Assembly (NCBI GenBank): GCA_019239895.1
Contig: JAFAZH010000036.1
Span: 62,001 to 126,000, forward strand
Source of the DNA: Abditibacteriaceae bacterium
GTDB lineage: Bacteria; Armatimonadota; Abditibacteriia; Abditibacteriales; Abditibacteriaceae
Reading direction: 5' to 3'
DNA: 64,000 nucleotides
In this document: positions 1,228-13,244 of the stretch, one piece after another
Numbering within the stretch: position 1 is the stretch's first letter
Layout: the number at the start of each line of letters is the position of its first letter
Notes under the pieces: model-generated
Seen by the model: the letters and a program-made list of their open reading frames with translations, nothing else
Told to the model about the DNA's origin: nothing
Database searches by the model: none
Position numbers and translations under genes: made by a program

Positions 1228-2100
1228 TCACTCCTCATCAACCGCCTGTTGCCAACGTTCTTTTAATAGCTGGGTGATGGGGCCGGGGGCTGCATAAGAA
1301 TGCTCGACTCTATTAATTTCGGCGGTGTTCAGCGTTCCCTCATAATCCATCTCTGTATACGTTGCGACAGCGCGGGGGCCAGTGGCGGCTGTAGTGATAA
1401 ACACTTCATCGGCCCCGGCTAATTCATGAGGTGAAAAGATGCCCTGCCGCGACTCAATGCCCATTTCCATCAGCCACTCTAAGATAATCTCTCGCGCAAT
1501 ACCGGGTAGGCAACCACTATCTAAAGCGGGCGTGCGGACTTCCCCCCGGCTCACCCAGAATAAGTTAGCGCGGGCACATTCGCATAAGGCTCCCTGGCTG
1601 TTGCATAACACCGCTTCATCAAACCCCTGTGCTGTCATTTCCCGCCATGCCCATTGATGCCCTAAATAGGCTGTGGCTTTGACGCCTGCTAAGGGTCGTC
1701 GTGCTTCCAGGCGATAGAGTGAAAGTCCTAACTTCACAGCAGCATTACCGCTAGGGGGACGCTCCGCCACCAGTATTGAAAAATCACTCCCCACGTCACC
1801 ATTCCAACGCCCATCGCCGCGCCGCGTAAGAGTGAGCCGCGCATAACCATCTTGTATCGAATTTTGGGCTACCACCTGATGCAGTGCCGACTGTATAGTT
1901 GCATCCGTGAAAGCAATAGAAATATCAGTCGCAGCCGCATCGTGGCGGAGACGGGATAGGTGTCGTTCCAAGGCGAAGGGATGCCCATGCCATATCCCGA
2001 TAGTGGTGAAGACGCCCCAGCCTAAAGTCACCCCGGCGGCGGTGGCTGATAGGGTCGCTGCTTCACTTTGCTGGATTTCTCCATTGAGCCAAATCTGCAT
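1228..2100 (-). CDS. Class IV aminotransferase (PabC/IlvE family)
   Basis: A PLP-dependent fold-type IV enzyme of 290 residues, the usual length. The N-terminus IWLNGE followed by GVTLGWGVFTT fits the family, and the likely PLP lysine is K141 in GVKATAYLG. Later family motifs are E-A-V-L-C-N (about 163-168), ANLFWV (about 178) and LPGIARE (about 198). The family includes 4-amino-4-deoxychorismate lyase, branched-chain and D-amino-acid aminotransferases; the short N-terminus and LPGIARE favour a PabC-like enzyme, but the substrate cannot be read from sequence. It is divergent from the SDR gene. No clear Shine-Dalgarno sequence precedes the ATG. Confidence 0.85.
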   Translation of the reverse strand: MQIWLNGEIQQSEAATLSATAAGVTLGWGVFTTIGIWHGHPFALERHLSRLRHDAAATDISIAFTDATIQSALHQVVAQNSIQDGYARLTLTRRGDGRWNGDVGSDFSILVAERPPSGNAAVKLGLSLYRLEARRPLAGVKATAYLGHQWAWREMTAQGFDEAVLCNSQGALCECARANLFWVSRGEVRTPALDSGCLPGIAREIILEWLMEMGIESRQGIFSPHELAGADEVFITTAATGPRAVATYTEMDYEGTLNTAEINRVEHSYAAPGPITQLLKERWQQAVDEE

Positions 2101-2222: not shown

Positions 2223-2921
2223 ATGCAGCCTCAACTTGTACTTGTTACTGGTGGCACGGGCACGCTGGGAAGTGCTATTGTGCAGGCATGTCGGGCCAAC
2301 TCCCATCGAGTAGTGGCCAATTACCTGCATAATAACCAGCGAGCTGAAGCGTTACAACACAATACGGGTTGTGAGCTATGGCGTGCTGACGTGAGTGACG
2401 AGGCTCAGGTCGCAACGATGTTCGCTGCCTTGCCGCCACTTTTTGCTATCGTGCATAGTGCGGCTATTACCCATGATGCGCTTTTAGTGCGTCAATCGCG
2501 TGCAGCGTGGGCCGAGACTTTGCAAGTCAACGCGGACGGCGCGTTTCTGGTAACCCGTATGGCGCTCCAGAAATTGCAAGATGGTGGACGTTTGATCTTG
2601 CTGGCGTCGCGGGTGGGCGAGCATGGCAATGGTGGACAAGGTGCGTATGCCGCCAGTAAAGCAGCGGTTATTGCCCTGACGAAGTGCGCGGCGCGTGAAG
2701 GCGCGGCCCGCCGTCTGGGTGTTAATGCCATTTGTCCGGGTGTAGTGCCCTCAGCGTTGACCGATGCGCTGAGTGAGCCGCATTTAAGGGCGCTGCAAGG
2801 CCAGAGTGTGCTGGGATCGTTTGGTACAGCACAGCAGGTCGCCGCTACAGTTGCCTGGTTGTTAAGTGATGCCGCCGCTGGTATATCCGGCCAGGTTATC
2901 CACTGCGACAGCCGCATTTGA
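2223..2921 (+). CDS. Short-chain dehydrogenase/reductase, FabG-like
   Basis: A classical SDR of 232 residues. The cofactor motif TGGTGTLGS is near residues 9-17, a catalytic Ser is in LLASRVG, and YAASK carries the Tyr and Lys. The C-terminus ends SGQVIHCD, like the SGQ(V/T)(I/L)HVNGG end of 3-oxoacyl-ACP reductases. A FabG-like ketoreductase role fits the ketosynthase two genes downstream. The start is ATG with no obvious ribosome site. Confidence 0.85.
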   Translation: MQPQLVLVTGGTGTLGSAIVQACRANSHRVVANYLHNNQRAEALQHNTGCELWRADVSDEAQVATMFAALPPLFAIVHSAAITHDALLVRQSRAAWAETLQVNADGAFLVTRMALQKLQDGGRLILLASRVGEHGNGGQGAYAASKAAVIALTKCAAREGAARRLGVNAICPGVVPSALTDALSEPHLRALQGQSVLGSFGTAQQVAATVAWLLSDAAAGISGQVIHCDSRI

Positions 2922-4257: not shown

Positions 4258-5472
4258 ATGGTTGATGGGCAGCAGGAAAACATCCGGCATAGTAAATCGT
4301 CGCCAGTGAAGCGGCACCATTGGGACAGGCCACGCGTTGCGATTACCGGATTCTACGCGGGTTTTTATGTCGGTGCGCAATGGGTTGAATTCTTCTCATC
4401 CGGTGGCCCGACTTTGCGCGGCATTTCTGAAGGTTATGCTCCGGGGCCAACTCCACAAAGTTCGGCTGCTTGGTCGTTATTAAGTGGCATTGCGCTTCCT
4501 GCTACCCCCGACTTTGCCTGTCTCACATCGCGTCTCCTGGCCGAGTTAAATACCTCTGGCCTATGGCATGAAGCTGCGTTAACCGTTGATCCTCAGCGCG
4601 TTGCTATTTCCTTTGCCGCTTCCAAGGGACGGGTGACTATGCGGCCCGATGGAGCTTACCTTTGTGGCGCGGTGGAATCCACGGGGCATTGGCCTGCGCT
4701 GGCTTTAGCCCGTTACACCGGAAGCACCGGGCCAGTGCTGTCACCTGTTGCCGCCTGTGCCACGGGCGCGCATACTATCGCTACTGGGGCGCAACTGATT
4801 GAAGATGGTTATGCTGATGTCGTTTTGGCGGGCGCGTTAGAAAATGGTCTTACGCCTTTGGTGTTAGCGGGATATAAAAGCCTAGGCGCGATTAGCGCGG
4901 CTGGTATCATGCGCCCGTTTGATCGTCGTCGTGATGGCTTTCTGCCCGCCGAAGGCATGGCCTGTCTGATCTTAGAAGATGAAGAAAAGTGCCAGGCACG
5001 GGGTGCAGCGATTTATGGCTATGTGGCAGGTTCTTCGATGCAGGCTGATGCCACCGCCATGACAACCATGAACCCAACGGGTGATACTATTGCCAGGGCC
5101 ATCGAAGTTGCTCTGGCCAAAACCAACCATGCTGGCATTGATTACATCAACGCTCATGGCACGGCGACGAAGCTTAACGATGTGCTGGAAACCAGAGGGA
5201 TTAAATTGGTCTTTGGCCAGTCGGTGCCAGTTACCGCCACGAAGCCATTAACCGGACATTTACTGGGCGCGACAGGTGCGGTGGAGGCGGTGTTGTGTTT
5301 GCTGGCGATGCAGGAAAGCTATGCGCCACCGACTTTAAACCTGGAAGAGCCAGAGGATGAATGCGATCTTGATTATATTCCGCAGCAAGGCCGCACTATG
5401 AATATAACCAGTACATTAAGCCTGAGTTACGGCTTCGGCGGCCATTGTGGTGTACTAATCTTTTCAAAATGA
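4258..5472 (+). CDS. Beta-ketoacyl-ACP synthase, FabF-like
   Basis: A thiolase-fold condensing enzyme of 404 residues. The C-H-H triad is visible: Cys in AACATGA (about 166), His in NAHGTATKLND (about 299) and His in GHLLGATGAVEA (about 332). The first ~100 residues are poorly FabF-like (no VSPLG block), so it is a divergent member and could be a specialised chain-elongating enzyme. It starts 2 bases after the metallophosphoesterase stop, and a FabG-like gene lies upstream. A second ketosynthase is at 42396-43715. Confidence 0.85.
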   Translation: MVDGQQENIRHSKSSPVKRHHWDRPRVAITGFYAGFYVGAQWVEFFSSGGPTLRGISEGYAPGPTPQSSAAWSLLSGIALPATPDFACLTSRLLAELNTSGLWHEAALTVDPQRVAISFAASKGRVTMRPDGAYLCGAVESTGHWPALALARYTGSTGPVLSPVAACATGAHTIATGAQLIEDGYADVVLAGALENGLTPLVLAGYKSLGAISAAGIMRPFDRRRDGFLPAEGMACLILEDEEKCQARGAAIYGYVAGSSMQADATAMTTMNPTGDTIARAIEVALAKTNHAGIDYINAHGTATKLNDVLETRGIKLVFGQSVPVTATKPLTGHLLGATGAVEAVLCLLAMQESYAPPTLNLEEPEDECDLDYIPQQGRTMNITSTLSLSYGFGGHCGVLIFSK

Positions 5473-5638: not shown

Positions 5639-6610
5639 ATGCGAGTAGCGATTTTAGGAGCGGGCGGATTAGGTAAAGCCGCCGCGCAGATTGTGGAGTG
5701 CAAAGACGAAACGACCCTCGTGGCTGTGGCAGACGCCAGTGGCTTTGTTTATGATCCGGCAGGGGTGCCCGCTGGCGCGGTGGCGCAGGTCAAAGTGGGC
5801 GGTAGCGTAGCAGAGTTGCCCACTGGCCAGGCCACCGAAGATTCCATCGGTGAAATTATTCGCTTAGGTGAGCAGATAGATGGTGTCTTCCTCGCTTTGC
5901 CGAATCTGCCCAATGAGTTTATTCCGGGTGTAGTCACGCGTTTCATCGAAGGCGGCTTTCGTGGTTCATTTGTGGATGCCCTCAAGCGCACGCGAGCGAT
6001 GGAAATGATGTTCGATTTAGACGAGCGAATGCGGGCGGCAGAGTGCGTTTATCTCACCGGTTGCGGGGCCACGCCAGGTCTTTTGACAGCAGCGGCAGCA
6101 CTCGCTGCGCAGAGTTTTGTGAAGGTGGAGAAAGTTGACATCTGGTGGGGTGTGGGCATTGCACGATGGGATGATTACAAAGCCACTATCCGCGAAGATA
6201 TTGCCCATTTGCCCGGTTATGATGTGGAACGGGCCAAAGCGATGAGCGATGCCGAAGTAGACTCGCTATTGGCACAAACCGAAGGCAAACTGACTTTGCA
6301 TGAAATGGAACACGCCGACGATGTAATGTTAGAACGCGCCGGGGTTATCGAGCGCGACGCGGTGCATGTGGGCGGCGTGATGGACACTCGGTCGGCGCAG
6401 AAGCCCGTCTCGACCACCATGACCCTGACGGGTATCACCTTTGAGGGTAAGCGTTCACAGCACAAGTTTATTCTGGGTGATGAGACTTCGATGGCAGCCA
6501 ACGTCTGCGGCCCGGCCCTCGGCTATTTGAAGCGTGCCCACTGGCTGCACCAGCGTGGCGTCTATGGCGTTTTCGGTTCGGCTGAAATGATGCCAATGGT
6601 CGTAAAATAA
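5639..6610 (+). CDS. bioU: BioU-like NAD(P)-dependent enzyme (saccharopine dehydrogenase-like fold)
   Basis: A 323-residue Rossmann-fold protein: GAGGLGKAAA at residues 7-16, then VAVADASGFVYD. It resembles BioU, the cyanobacterial suicide enzyme that turns 8-amino-7-oxononanoate into a carbamoylated diaminononanoate by giving up the amino group of its own lysine. K116 in VDALKRT lies where the reactive lysine of BioU is expected. Its place just before bioF and bioD, with no bioA in view, strongly supports this. A good ribosome site (AAGGAG) precedes the ATG. The alternative is a different saccharopine/carboxynorspermidine dehydrogenase-like enzyme. The family call is firm; the BioU call is inference from motif and context. 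Confidence 0.7.
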   Translation: MRVAILGAGGLGKAAAQIVECKDETTLVAVADASGFVYDPAGVPAGAVAQVKVGGSVAELPTGQATEDSIGEIIRLGEQIDGVFLALPNLPNEFIPGVVTRFIEGGFRGSFVDALKRTRAMEMMFDLDERMRAAECVYLTGCGATPGLLTAAAALAAQSFVKVEKVDIWWGVGIARWDDYKATIREDIAHLPGYDVERAKAMSDAEVDSLLAQTEGKLTLHEMEHADDVMLERAGVIERDAVHVGGVMDTRSAQKPVSTTMTLTGITFEGKRSQHKFILGDETSMAANVCGPALGYLKRAHWLHQRGVYGVFGSAEMMPMVVK

Positions 6611-6644
6611 TTCAGCCCAACTGTTTATGTCGTGGTGAAACTTA

Positions 6645-7379
6645 ATGAATGTAGAAACGCAGCCTGAGTCCGATACGCCCACTGTTGAACGACCTGTCAT
6701 CAACCACTATGGAGAGCCAGTTGAAGAACTGGTGAAGATTGCCATTGAAGATAATGGCGAGCCATTAGTAGATATTTTTCAGGTGTGCCCAGAACTGAGC
6801 TGGGCCGCGAAAAGTCCGCGCTTCGATTTTCCGCGCACTGGCCTGGGACGTGTTACCGTAGCACAGATGCTCAAAACCGCGCAGGGACTATTACCTGAAG
6901 GATTACATCTGCAAATCATCGGCGTGTTCCGCAGCTTTGAGGTGCAGCAGATGATGTACAACACGGTGCGTGCCGAGTTTGCGGCGCAACACCCGGATTG
7001 GGACGAGGAGCATATTACGGAATATGTAAACGTCTTTTCGGCACCGCCCATCTGGGACACGCCCCCGCCGCATATAACAGGAGGTGCCGTAGACCTCAGC
7101 ATCATAGATGAAAGCGGCGAGCGGCTGGACATGATTTCCCCTTACCCAATGGGCTGGGAATCAGCACCCTCCGCTATTGGTGGCTTGAGCGAAACAGCCC
7201 GCCGCAACCGTGATCTGCTCTTTTCAGTTTTAACCGAAGCGGGCTTAACGAATTTCCCTGGCGAATGGTGGCATTGGAGTTGGGGCGAGCCTGGCTGGGC
7301 TTTGCGCACTGGGCGCGATATTGCTCTCTATGGTGCCGTGCCAATGGATCAAGTACCGGATTGGTCGCCGCCCACCTAA
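6645..7379 (+). CDS. M15-family zinc peptidase (VanX/D-Ala-D-Ala dipeptidase-like)
   Basis: The 244-residue protein has the M15 zinc layout: Arg in GVFRSFEVQ (about 90), a His/Asp pair in HITGGAVDLS (about 142-149) and E-W-W-H-W (about 206-210), giving the catalytic Glu and third zinc ligand. Length and motif spacing fit the VanX/DdpX D-Ala-D-Ala dipeptidases rather than the longer DacB-type enzymes. No signal peptide is seen, so it is probably cytoplasmic and may recycle D-Ala-D-Ala or other peptides. It lies between bioU-like and bioF genes without an obvious metabolic link to them. Confidence 0.85.
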   Translation: MNVETQPESDTPTVERPVINHYGEPVEELVKIAIEDNGEPLVDIFQVCPELSWAAKSPRFDFPRTGLGRVTVAQMLKTAQGLLPEGLHLQIIGVFRSFEVQQMMYNTVRAEFAAQHPDWDEEHITEYVNVFSAPPIWDTPPPHITGGAVDLSIIDESGERLDMISPYPMGWESAPSAIGGLSETARRNRDLLFSVLTEAGLTNFPGEWWHWSWGEPGWALRTGRDIALYGAVPMDQVPDWSPPT

Positions 7380-7458
7380 GCCCTCACCTCCTCACCTCTC
7401 CCACTGCGTAGGCGAGGGGCCGGGGGTGAGGGCCACCACTCACCTCCTCACCTCCTCC
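7380..7458. repeat. Short low-complexity C-rich repeat
   Basis: The spacer before bioF consists of CCTCACCTC units followed by GGCCGGGGGTGAGGGCCAC. The same GGGGGTGAGGGCCAC string is at 43827-43841, and a related C/G-rich spacer is at 57684-57830. It looks like a dispersed intergenic repeat. Confidence 0.6.
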
Positions 7459-7459
7459 C

Positions 7460-8605
7460 ATGTCTTCTCTTGACGACCAACTACAGGCTGATCTTGAACA
7501 ACGCGAGAAAAGTTGTTTGCGGCGTAGCTTGCGGGTTGTGCCGCCGGGTGTGCTTGATTTAGCCGCCAACGATTACCTGGGTCTCTCACAGCACCCAGCA
7601 GTTATTGAGGCGGCTTGTGAGGCGACGCGCAATTATGGTGCAGGGGCGCGGGCTTCGCGTTTGGTAAGTGGCCATATCCCGTTGCACACCCAATTAGAAG
7701 AGGAATTAGCTGCTTTCAAAGGTTGCGAGGCGTCTTTAGTTTTTCCTTCTGGTTATCAAGCCAATTTGTCTTTAATCACGAGCTTAGCCGGGGAGCAGGA
7801 TGTGCTACTTTGTGATAAGCGCAATCATGCCTCTTTGATTGATGCGGTGCGCCTGGCAGGGCAACAAAACACCACCGTCCGCTTCTACGACTCATGGACT
7901 AAACTGCGCGCTCTGTTAGAGCGTTACTCACAGGCGCGGCAGCGTTTTGTGGTGACGGATGCCGTTTTTTCGATGGATGGCGATGTGGTAGATTTGCCAC
8001 AACTCTTCGCCTTAGCCTGCGAATTTGAGGCGTATATAATTTTAGATGACGCCCACGGCACCGGCACGTTAGGTCTAACCGGACGTGGCGCTATGGAGCA
8101 TTACGGATTGAAAAATGAAGCTGGAATAGAGCGATTTATCCAGATGGGCACGCTTTCCAAGGCCGTAGGATCACAGGGCGGGTTTGTTGCCGGGTCGCGC
8201 CTGCTTATCGAATGGTTAGTCAACGCGGCACGGCCCTTTATTTATACGACCGGGTTGAATCCGGCGGCTTGTGGTGCAGCTCTGGCGGCCTTAAAGATTA
8301 TACAGGGTGAGCCACAACACTTAGCCCGTCTGCGTGAGGTGACACAACGCTTGGCCAGTGGGCTGATAGCTTTAGGTTTTGCTGCGCGTCAACAGCCGTC
8401 GCCTATTATTCCTGTTATCGTCGGCGATGAGCAGCCCGCTCTGGCTCTGAGTGATGCGCTTTTGAGACATGGCGTGTGGTGTCCAGCCATTCGGCCTCCA
8501 ACCGTGCCGGGTGGCACCAGCCGTCTCCGCGTGACAGCATCGGCAGCCCTCAACGATAGTGAAATAGATCGCATTTTAGACGTATTCAATACAACTAAAT
8601 ATTAA
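7460..8605 (+). CDS. bioF: 8-amino-7-oxononanoate synthase
   Basis: Condenses pimeloyl-ACP/CoA with alanine in biotin synthesis. The 381-residue alpha-oxoamine synthase has the PLP lysine at K234 in TLSKAVGSQGG, the HGTGT block after DDA (about 196-204), and the substrate-side motifs ANDYLGL, GAGASR-like GAGARASRLVSG and FPSGYQAN. The sequence is clearly BioF rather than Kbl or HemA, which carry different GTxxK neighbourhoods. It is separated from bioD only by a palindromic repeat. Confidence 0.95.
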   Translation: MSSLDDQLQADLEQREKSCLRRSLRVVPPGVLDLAANDYLGLSQHPAVIEAACEATRNYGAGARASRLVSGHIPLHTQLEEELAAFKGCEASLVFPSGYQANLSLITSLAGEQDVLLCDKRNHASLIDAVRLAGQQNTTVRFYDSWTKLRALLERYSQARQRFVVTDAVFSMDGDVVDLPQLFALACEFEAYIILDDAHGTGTLGLTGRGAMEHYGLKNEAGIERFIQMGTLSKAVGSQGGFVAGSRLLIEWLVNAARPFIYTTGLNPAACGAALAALKIIQGEPQHLARLREVTQRLASGLIALGFAARQQPSPIIPVIVGDEQPALALSDALLRHGVWCPAIRPPTVPGGTSRLRVTASAALNDSEIDRILDVFNTTKY

Positions 8606-8630
8606 GAAAGTAATCAGGTTAATTCGACTA

Positions 8631-8751
8631 ACACCCGCCGCTAAAGCAGCGGGCTGAACCTGAAAGCCCCCTGAACGGGGCTGGCAGAAGCGGAACACCT
8701 TCGGCGGTTAGCCCGGCTTTTGGCTCCTATCCCATTGCTTTAGCGGCGAGT
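8631..8751. repeat. Palindromic repeat (GCTAAAGCAGCGGGCTGA family, copy 1)
   Basis: The left arm CCGCCGCTAAAGCAGCGGGC pairs with the right arm TTGCTTTAGCGGCG. Inner hairpins are AGCCCCCTGAACGGGGCT and a GC-rich one. Copy 2 is at 18845-18963. It lies between bioF and bioD and could affect read-through. Confidence 0.85.
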
Positions 8752-8763
8752 TTAATTTTATTT

Positions 8764-9516
8764 ATGCAGCCTCCATCACTTTTTATTACAGGCACGGATA
8801 CGGGAGTTGGCAAGACTGTGGTGACAGCATTGCTAGCGCTACGCCTGCAAGCGCAGGGTATAAATGTGGGCGTTATGAAACCCTTTGCCACTGGGTGCTG
8901 TTGGGAAAATGGCGGGTTAGTTAGCGAAGATGCGCAGTGGCTTAAAGAAATCACAGGCGTAACGGATGATTTAAGTCTTATTAACCCAATTCGCCTGGAG
9001 GAGCCATTAGCTCCTCTGGTGGCAGCCCGACGTTTAGCAAGCCAAGGCCCTGCGGCGCATAGAGACTTTATGCCCGAAGTTATGGCAGCCTATCAGGAAT
9101 TACAGCGCCGCCATGAATGTGTCCTTGTAGAAGGAGTGGGTGGTTTGTTGGTGCCGCTTCAGGAACAGCAAAATGGTGATGCAGGCGTTCCATCTCTAAA
9201 ACTGCCACTTTTTACCTGCGCTGATTTTGCTAATCTCTTAGGTTTGCCCGTTGTGGTTGTGGCACGGCGCACTTTAGGAACGATCAATCACACCGCTTTA
9301 ACGTGTCAGGTGCCGTTGCGTCCACCAGCTCATTTTGCGGGCTTGGTTTTCTGTGATGCCCACCCTGTTGAGACTGAGGATGTTGCTATGCAAACAAGCC
9401 CTGCCATTATTGCCGAGATGACGGGCTTAACTATTTGGGGCACTGTGCCTTACTTGCCAGACCTCTCGAACGAAATCTTAAATCGGGTGGCGCAAGAATT
9501 CTTGGTCTTGCCGTAA
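8764..9516 (+). CDS. bioD: Dethiobiotin synthetase
   Basis: An ATP-dependent ring-closing enzyme of biotin synthesis. The N-terminal P-loop FITGTDTGVGKT (residues 6-17) and the EGVGGLLVPL block (about 121-130) are diagnostic, and 250 residues is slightly longer than usual (about 225) because of an insertion around residues 131-145. If the BioU call is right, this enzyme would receive a carbamate intermediate directly. It is the last gene of the biotin section; bioB and bioA are not in the window. Confidence 0.93.
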   Translation: MQPPSLFITGTDTGVGKTVVTALLALRLQAQGINVGVMKPFATGCCWENGGLVSEDAQWLKEITGVTDDLSLINPIRLEEPLAPLVAARRLASQGPAAHRDFMPEVMAAYQELQRRHECVLVEGVGGLLVPLQEQQNGDAGVPSLKLPLFTCADFANLLGLPVVVVARRTLGTINHTALTCQVPLRPPAHFAGLVFCDAHPVETEDVAMQTSPAIIAEMTGLTIWGTVPYLPDLSNEILNRVAQEFLVLP

Positions 9517-13171: not shown

Positions 13172-13244
13172 GGGCCCATAGCTTAATGGTTAAAGCAACA
13201 CACTCATAATGTGCGGACTGGGGGTTCAAATCCCTCTGGGCCTA
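13172..13244 (+). tRNA. tRNA with CAU anticodon (Met elongator or Ile2)
   Basis: A complete 73-base cloverleaf: acceptor GGGCCCA / TGGGCCT, D-stem GCTT/AAGC, anticodon loop CTCATAA, T-arm GGGGGTTCAAATCCCTC, discriminator A, no encoded CCA. It is not the initiator (no three GC pairs next to the loop). The D-loop AATGGTTAAA and the mismatch at position 27-43 resemble chloroplast tRNA-Ile(CAU), so a lysidine-modified Ile2 tRNA is possible. Confidence 0.9.

Follow-up and report, generated by a model that had tools for sequence, protein, structure and literature searches.

A BioU-type enzyme predicted to take the place of BioA in the biotin locus of an Abditibacterium-family bacterium

Genes and features of the biotin locus

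The window, by which we mean the whole stretch of 64,000 nucleotides that was analysed (G000:C20:62001-126000), comes from a 6.65 Mb genome of the Abditibacterium family that is assembled in 60 contigs and is 93.7% complete. On one strand it carries four genes in the order bioU, M15 peptidase, bioF and bioD, with a β-ketoacyl-ACP synthase (KAS), a short-chain dehydrogenase (SDR) and a divergently transcribed pabC-like gene upstream (Table 1). The score of BioF lies 1 bit below the TIGR00858 cut-off of 426.45, and that family is its best by 85 bits.

Table 1. Features of the window with their positions (first letter of the window = 1), strands and supporting matches.
Feature	Position	Strand	Support
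Class IV aminotransferase, aminodeoxychorismate-lyase-like (pabC-like)	1228..2100	-	PF01063, 178.7 bits
FabG-like short-chain dehydrogenase (SDR)	2223..2921	+	TIGR01830, 164.9 bits (cut-off 297.75)
FabF-like β-ketoacyl-ACP synthase (KAS), divergent N-terminal third	4258..5472	+	TIGR03150, 277.7 bits (cut-off 493.75)
bioU, predicted BioU-type enzyme converting (S)-8-amino-7-oxononanoate to DAN, 323 aa	5639..6610	+	NF047886 and Slr0355 matches
Codon of K116 of bioU, predicted reactive lysine	5984-5986	+	Column opposite Lys124
M15 (D-Ala-D-Ala dipeptidase-like) peptidase	6645..7379	+	PF01427, 51.6 bits
bioF, 8-amino-7-oxononanoate synthase	7460..8605	+	TIGR00858, 425.5 bits
bioD, dethiobiotin synthetase	8764..9516	+	TIGR00347, 134.9 bits (cut-off 83.3)
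tRNA gene	13172-13244		Only Rfam match in the window

The protein encoded by the first of these four genes matches the NCBIfam BioU family NF047886 along the entire model (1-323 of 323; 446.6 bits, E = 4.5e-134), and the next-best NCBIfam family in the profile search scores 21 bits. The PDB entry for Synechocystis Slr0355 aligns without a break to residues 1-322 (E = 7e-114), and the two proteins are 57% identical over their full length. The gene had been predicted to encode a saccharopine-dehydrogenase-like protein with a DALKRT motif and a lysine at position 116. The motif is present and its lysine is residue 116, but the family assignment does not stand: neither Pfam nor NCBIfam gives a match to the saccharopine or carboxynorspermidine dehydrogenase families at E ≤ 0.001. 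In Pfam the protein matches only ELFV_dehydrog, a Rossmann-type family, and that weakly (24.9 bits). The sequence GAGGLG at residues 7-12 corresponds to the N-terminal NAD(P)-binding Rossmann glycine motif, the glycines of which are invariant among the aligned proteins.

The alignment proposed in the original prediction places K116 exactly on Lys124 of Slr0355, the lysine that the chain sequences of 6itd and 6k37 carry as alanine. This column is a lysine in 84 of 84 aligned BioUs, and the motif around it varies (DAIKRT, DALKRT, DVLKRT/S, CALKRT). The lysine is kept in every archaeal sequence that covers the position, and no replacement of it by another residue was seen in archaeal BioU. Eighty near-invariant positions are common to the window protein and the cyanobacterial BioUs, and the closest BioU from a named genome, that of an Abditibacterium sp. 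MAG (L042), is 76% identical to it. Judged by its sequence, the product of the gene is a full-length orthologue of Synechocystis BioU.

The presence of an M15 peptidase gene inside the locus had been flagged as unusual. The gene does lie between bioU and bioF, but it is no oddity of one locus, as homologues that are 63-64% identical (L216:7827-8546 and L217:5280-5993) lie upstream of bioF in G001 and G002, the family's other two genomes. A random insertion of the M15 gene is thereby ruled out. About 80 bp separate M15 from bioF in G002, one more open reading frame lies between them in G001, and in both of these genomes bioU is found on a different contig. The metal-site motifs HITGGAVD and EWWH (pattern HxxGxAxD, ExWH), at residues 143 and 207 of the window protein, are kept in both relatives, and in the NCBIfam search the window protein stays below the equivalog cut-offs of the known dipeptidases. 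Given that the M15 gene is tied to bioF throughout the family, we regard it as a lineage-specific member of the bioF neighbourhood. In G001 and G002 it is preceded by a gene whose product, a small membrane protein, gives a PEMT-like methyltransferase match below threshold.

The pabC-like, SDR and KAS genes beside bioU are common to the window's genome, G001 and G002, and in G246, which is a more distant member of the phylum, bioF directly adjoins a KAS gene (L215:5506-6843). Since a profile search of the window's genome gives no match to BioW and only weak methyltransferase matches to BioC (32 in number, the best at 73 bits, where the cut-off is 185), a part in pimelate synthesis is imaginable for these neighbours; the first stage of cyanobacterial biotin synthesis has also been described as unknown (PMC12903740). 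We nevertheless rate as unlikely an alternative pimeloyl-precursor route in which KAS, SDR and M15, together with the weakly PEMT-like candidate of two genomes, would replace BioC/BioH or BioW. The linkage is weak, being confined to one family, the KAS genes beside bioU and beside the bioF of G246 share only 37% identity, and the BioC model has a narrow reach, exceeding its cut-off in 1 of 14 control genomes. A KAS-SDR link in cyanobacteria was dropped as a candidate, because KAS homologues in cyanobacterial BioU genomes have no adjoining window-like SDR or PabC. Finally, the window contains no exact match to the BirA-type operator TTGTAAAC-N14..17-GTTTACAA and no riboswitch match in the Rfam scan, and promoter and terminator scans of it performed no better than on shuffled sequence.

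The missing bioA and the late biotin pathway

The PLP-dependent DAPA aminotransferase BioA (TIGR00508) occupies the same position in the pathway as BioU, that is, the conversion of (S)-8-amino-7-oxononanoate (AON) to DAN, but the two proteins are unrelated, and BioA is catalytic and takes an external amino donor. The original prediction held that a BioU-type enzyme stands in place of BioA beside bioF and bioD, and this is what we find, with both genes downstream of bioU on the same strand and no bioA above cut-off. Across the window's genome the best bioA match scores 261 bits, whereas the cut-off is 405. The class III aminotransferases are accounted for and number three: ArgD (532 bits) and HemL (606 bits), each above its cut-off, and a putrescine-aminotransferase-like protein (477 bits, under its cut-off). 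With bioF, bioU and bioD in the window and bioB on another contig (370 bits), the late pathway is complete without bioA, although in a genome that is 93.7% complete a bioA gene might sit in the missing part. Taken together, the window gene is very probably a true bioU that takes bioA's place in this organism, and the AON-to-DAN step is well supported as the predicted role of its product.

BioU in other phyla and in archaea

BioU has been described as a cyanobacterial enzyme (PMC12915131, PMC7133116, PMC12903740). We scanned about 85,000 species genomes and obtained 481 BioU relatives, and among the best 80 of these 481, from which the taxonomy was taken, the bacterial members belong to cyanobacteria, Omnitrophota, Desantisbacteria, Schekmanbacteria, Sumerlaeota/BRC1, Poribacteria, Nitrospinae and Armatimonadota/Abditibacteriota, and the archaeal member is Methanoperedens. 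In the archaeal phylum to which Methanoperedens belongs, BioU occurs in 28 of 394 genomes; the divergent clade that holds most of these 28 sequences is taken to be haloarchaeal. The wider spread of the single-turnover route that had been suggested is thus exceeded, reaching, by homology and among the best 80 of 481, about eight bacterial phyla besides cyanobacteria, as well as archaea. Within the window's own phylum a full-length BioU is present in 5 of 291 genomes, and the other matches are short, score below 29 bits and mostly cover the N-terminal NAD-binding part.

No bioA scores above cut-off in the 40 BioU genomes tested (39 of them distinct), and strong matches to bioF and bioB were found in 17 and 18, respectively, of the 19 BioU genomes checked. 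The four genomes of the window's phylum that do carry bioA above cut-off have no BioU; with bioA so scarce (4/291), the mutual exclusivity in that phylum is weak evidence. At 25 of 38 non-cyanobacterial loci, many of which end at contig ends, bioF, bioD or bioB lies near bioU, and its neighbours include bioB, bioF, bioD, bioW, bioY or birA. The cluster in Methanoperedens (L117:8187-12822) reads bioB-bioW-bioU-bioF-bioD and is, as read from its genes, a compact and complete pathway from pimelate with the predicted BioU in bioA's place. The order is bioB-bioU-bioF-bioD in Omnitrophota (L053), bioB-bioY-bioU-bioD in Desantisbacteria (L043) and birA, bioB, bioU, bioF in Nitrospinae (L114), and the gene names in these operons were checked against profiles (bioW 266, bioB 385-407, BirA 201, bioD 172-177 and BioY 128 bits). 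At the cyanobacterial loci, neither bioF nor bioD is found within the stretch examined, which extends up to 10 kb on each side of bioU. A LacI-like regulator gene, a candidate biotin regulator, was also seen slightly upstream of bioB/bioU in 11 Omnitrophota-type loci (L053:7767-8768 and 10 others, all of one cluster).

The curated cut-off of NF047886 is 600 bits, which the window protein fails at 446.6 bits. The three cyanobacterial BioUs tested pass it (639-647 bits), the bacterial BioUs from outside the cyanobacteria score 391-464 bits, with all those tested below 600, and the archaeal ones score 304-430 bits. Proteins from other phyla whose genes lie in complete biotin operons fail as well (391-423 bits) and the three cyanobacterial ones pass, which argues that the cut-off marks the cyanobacterial clade and not function. 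Because it drops every non-cyanobacterial BioU tested, automatic annotation would be expected to call hosts that have no bioA biotin auxotrophs.

The failed cut-off is also the first thing to be said for a different reading of the window gene, in which its product is related to BioU but has a changed function, as a different Rossmann-fold dehydrogenase acting on amino acids or polyamines, and only happens to be encoded near biotin genes, while some other aminotransferase makes DAN. The putrescine-aminotransferase-like class III enzyme, the substrate of which is uncertain, is present in the genome and could in principle do so. We consider this reading very unlikely, as the window protein keeps K116, the full-length identity and the near-invariant positions that it has in common with cyanobacterial BioUs, the other dehydrogenase families all score ≤ 22 bits, and the linkage of bioU with bioF, bioD and bioB recurs in unrelated phyla.

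The patchy occurrence of BioU in the phylum would fit a gene recently gained from a cyanobacterium, or a contig that is a binning artefact containing cyanobacterial DNA. In a tree of 68 BioUs, however, the cyanobacterial proteins group together in a single clade (100/100), and the window protein and its two family relatives form another (100/96), which falls within a clade (100/95) shared with Omnitrophota, Desantisbacteria, Schekmanbacteria and Nitrospinae. The order pabC-SDR-KAS-bioU, moreover, is also found on long contigs of G001 and G002. A recent cyanobacterial gift or an artefact of binning is thus extremely improbable, and the tree, which was midpoint-rooted for drawing only, speaks only against a recent cyanobacterial source for the window gene. 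Transfer among the non-cyanobacterial phyla is possible. The BioU of G246 is placed elsewhere on a long branch, which makes its position unsure. One MAG titled Marinifilum sp. (Bacteroidota; L046) has a BioU nearly identical to the Desantisbacteria-like ones (branch lengths 0.03-0.08), and probably its title is wrong or the bin mixed.

Predicted chemistry and meaning of the BioU route

The Synechocystis enzyme joins AON covalently to its lysine using NAD(P)H, and carboxylation follows; an oxidation with NAD(P)+ then frees DAN-carbamate, with loss of the lysine nitrogen from the protein (PMC12915131, PMC7133116). Slr0355 of Synechocystis sp. PCC 6803 (PDB 6ir4, 6itd, 6k36, 6k37, 6k38) resembles the window protein in its reactive lysine and glycine motif and likewise stands in for bioA. 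It differs in that the window protein belongs to a separate clade of the family and scores below the curated cut-off, and in that the window bioU adjoins bioF and bioD, from both of which the cyanobacterial bioU genes examined are unlinked. By analogy with the Synechocystis enzyme, AON made by BioF would condense with the ε-amino group of K116 and the adduct would be reduced by NAD(P)H. The AON-K116 conjugate would then be carboxylated, and its NAD(P)+-dependent oxidation would release DAN-carbamate from BioU, which BioD would convert to dethiobiotin and BioB to biotin. A spent BioU would no longer have its lysine nitrogen, so that one molecule of BioU would be consumed per biotin. The window's genome displays the orthology, the conserved lysine, the gene context and the lack of a bioA above cut-off; the activity, the single turnover and every one of these chemical steps we infer for the window protein by homology.

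A single-turnover vitamin enzyme that consumes its own residue has a counterpart in the thiamin pyrimidine synthase THI5p of Candida albicans, in which the residue is His66 (PMC10848271); the chemistry and product differ from those of BioU. The sequence is compatible with a catalytic BioU as well, one that would use the same lysine chemistry and have its nitrogen restored, or use an external amine, and so not be spent at each turnover. The argument for such an enzyme is one of metabolic cost only. The lysine and the motif around it are conserved with respect to the single-turnover enzyme, and in the loci compared across phyla no candidate repair gene accompanies bioU, which makes a catalytic BioU highly improbable and favours the consumption of one BioU per biotin.

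An enzyme that works once and costs a whole protein for each biotin looks a curiosity if it is confined to cyanobacteria. The same gene appears to replace bioA in many bacterial groups and in archaea, and the route is then not peculiar to cyanobacteria. On homology and gene context, BioU is an alternative to BioA with a wide and scattered distribution, in which the cyanobacterial form is one branch. This breadth supplies partners for reconstitution, for example with BioW from one and the same operon. With no other enzyme for the AON-to-DAN step visible in many bacterial phyla and in archaea, BioU would be a mainstream alternative to BioA.
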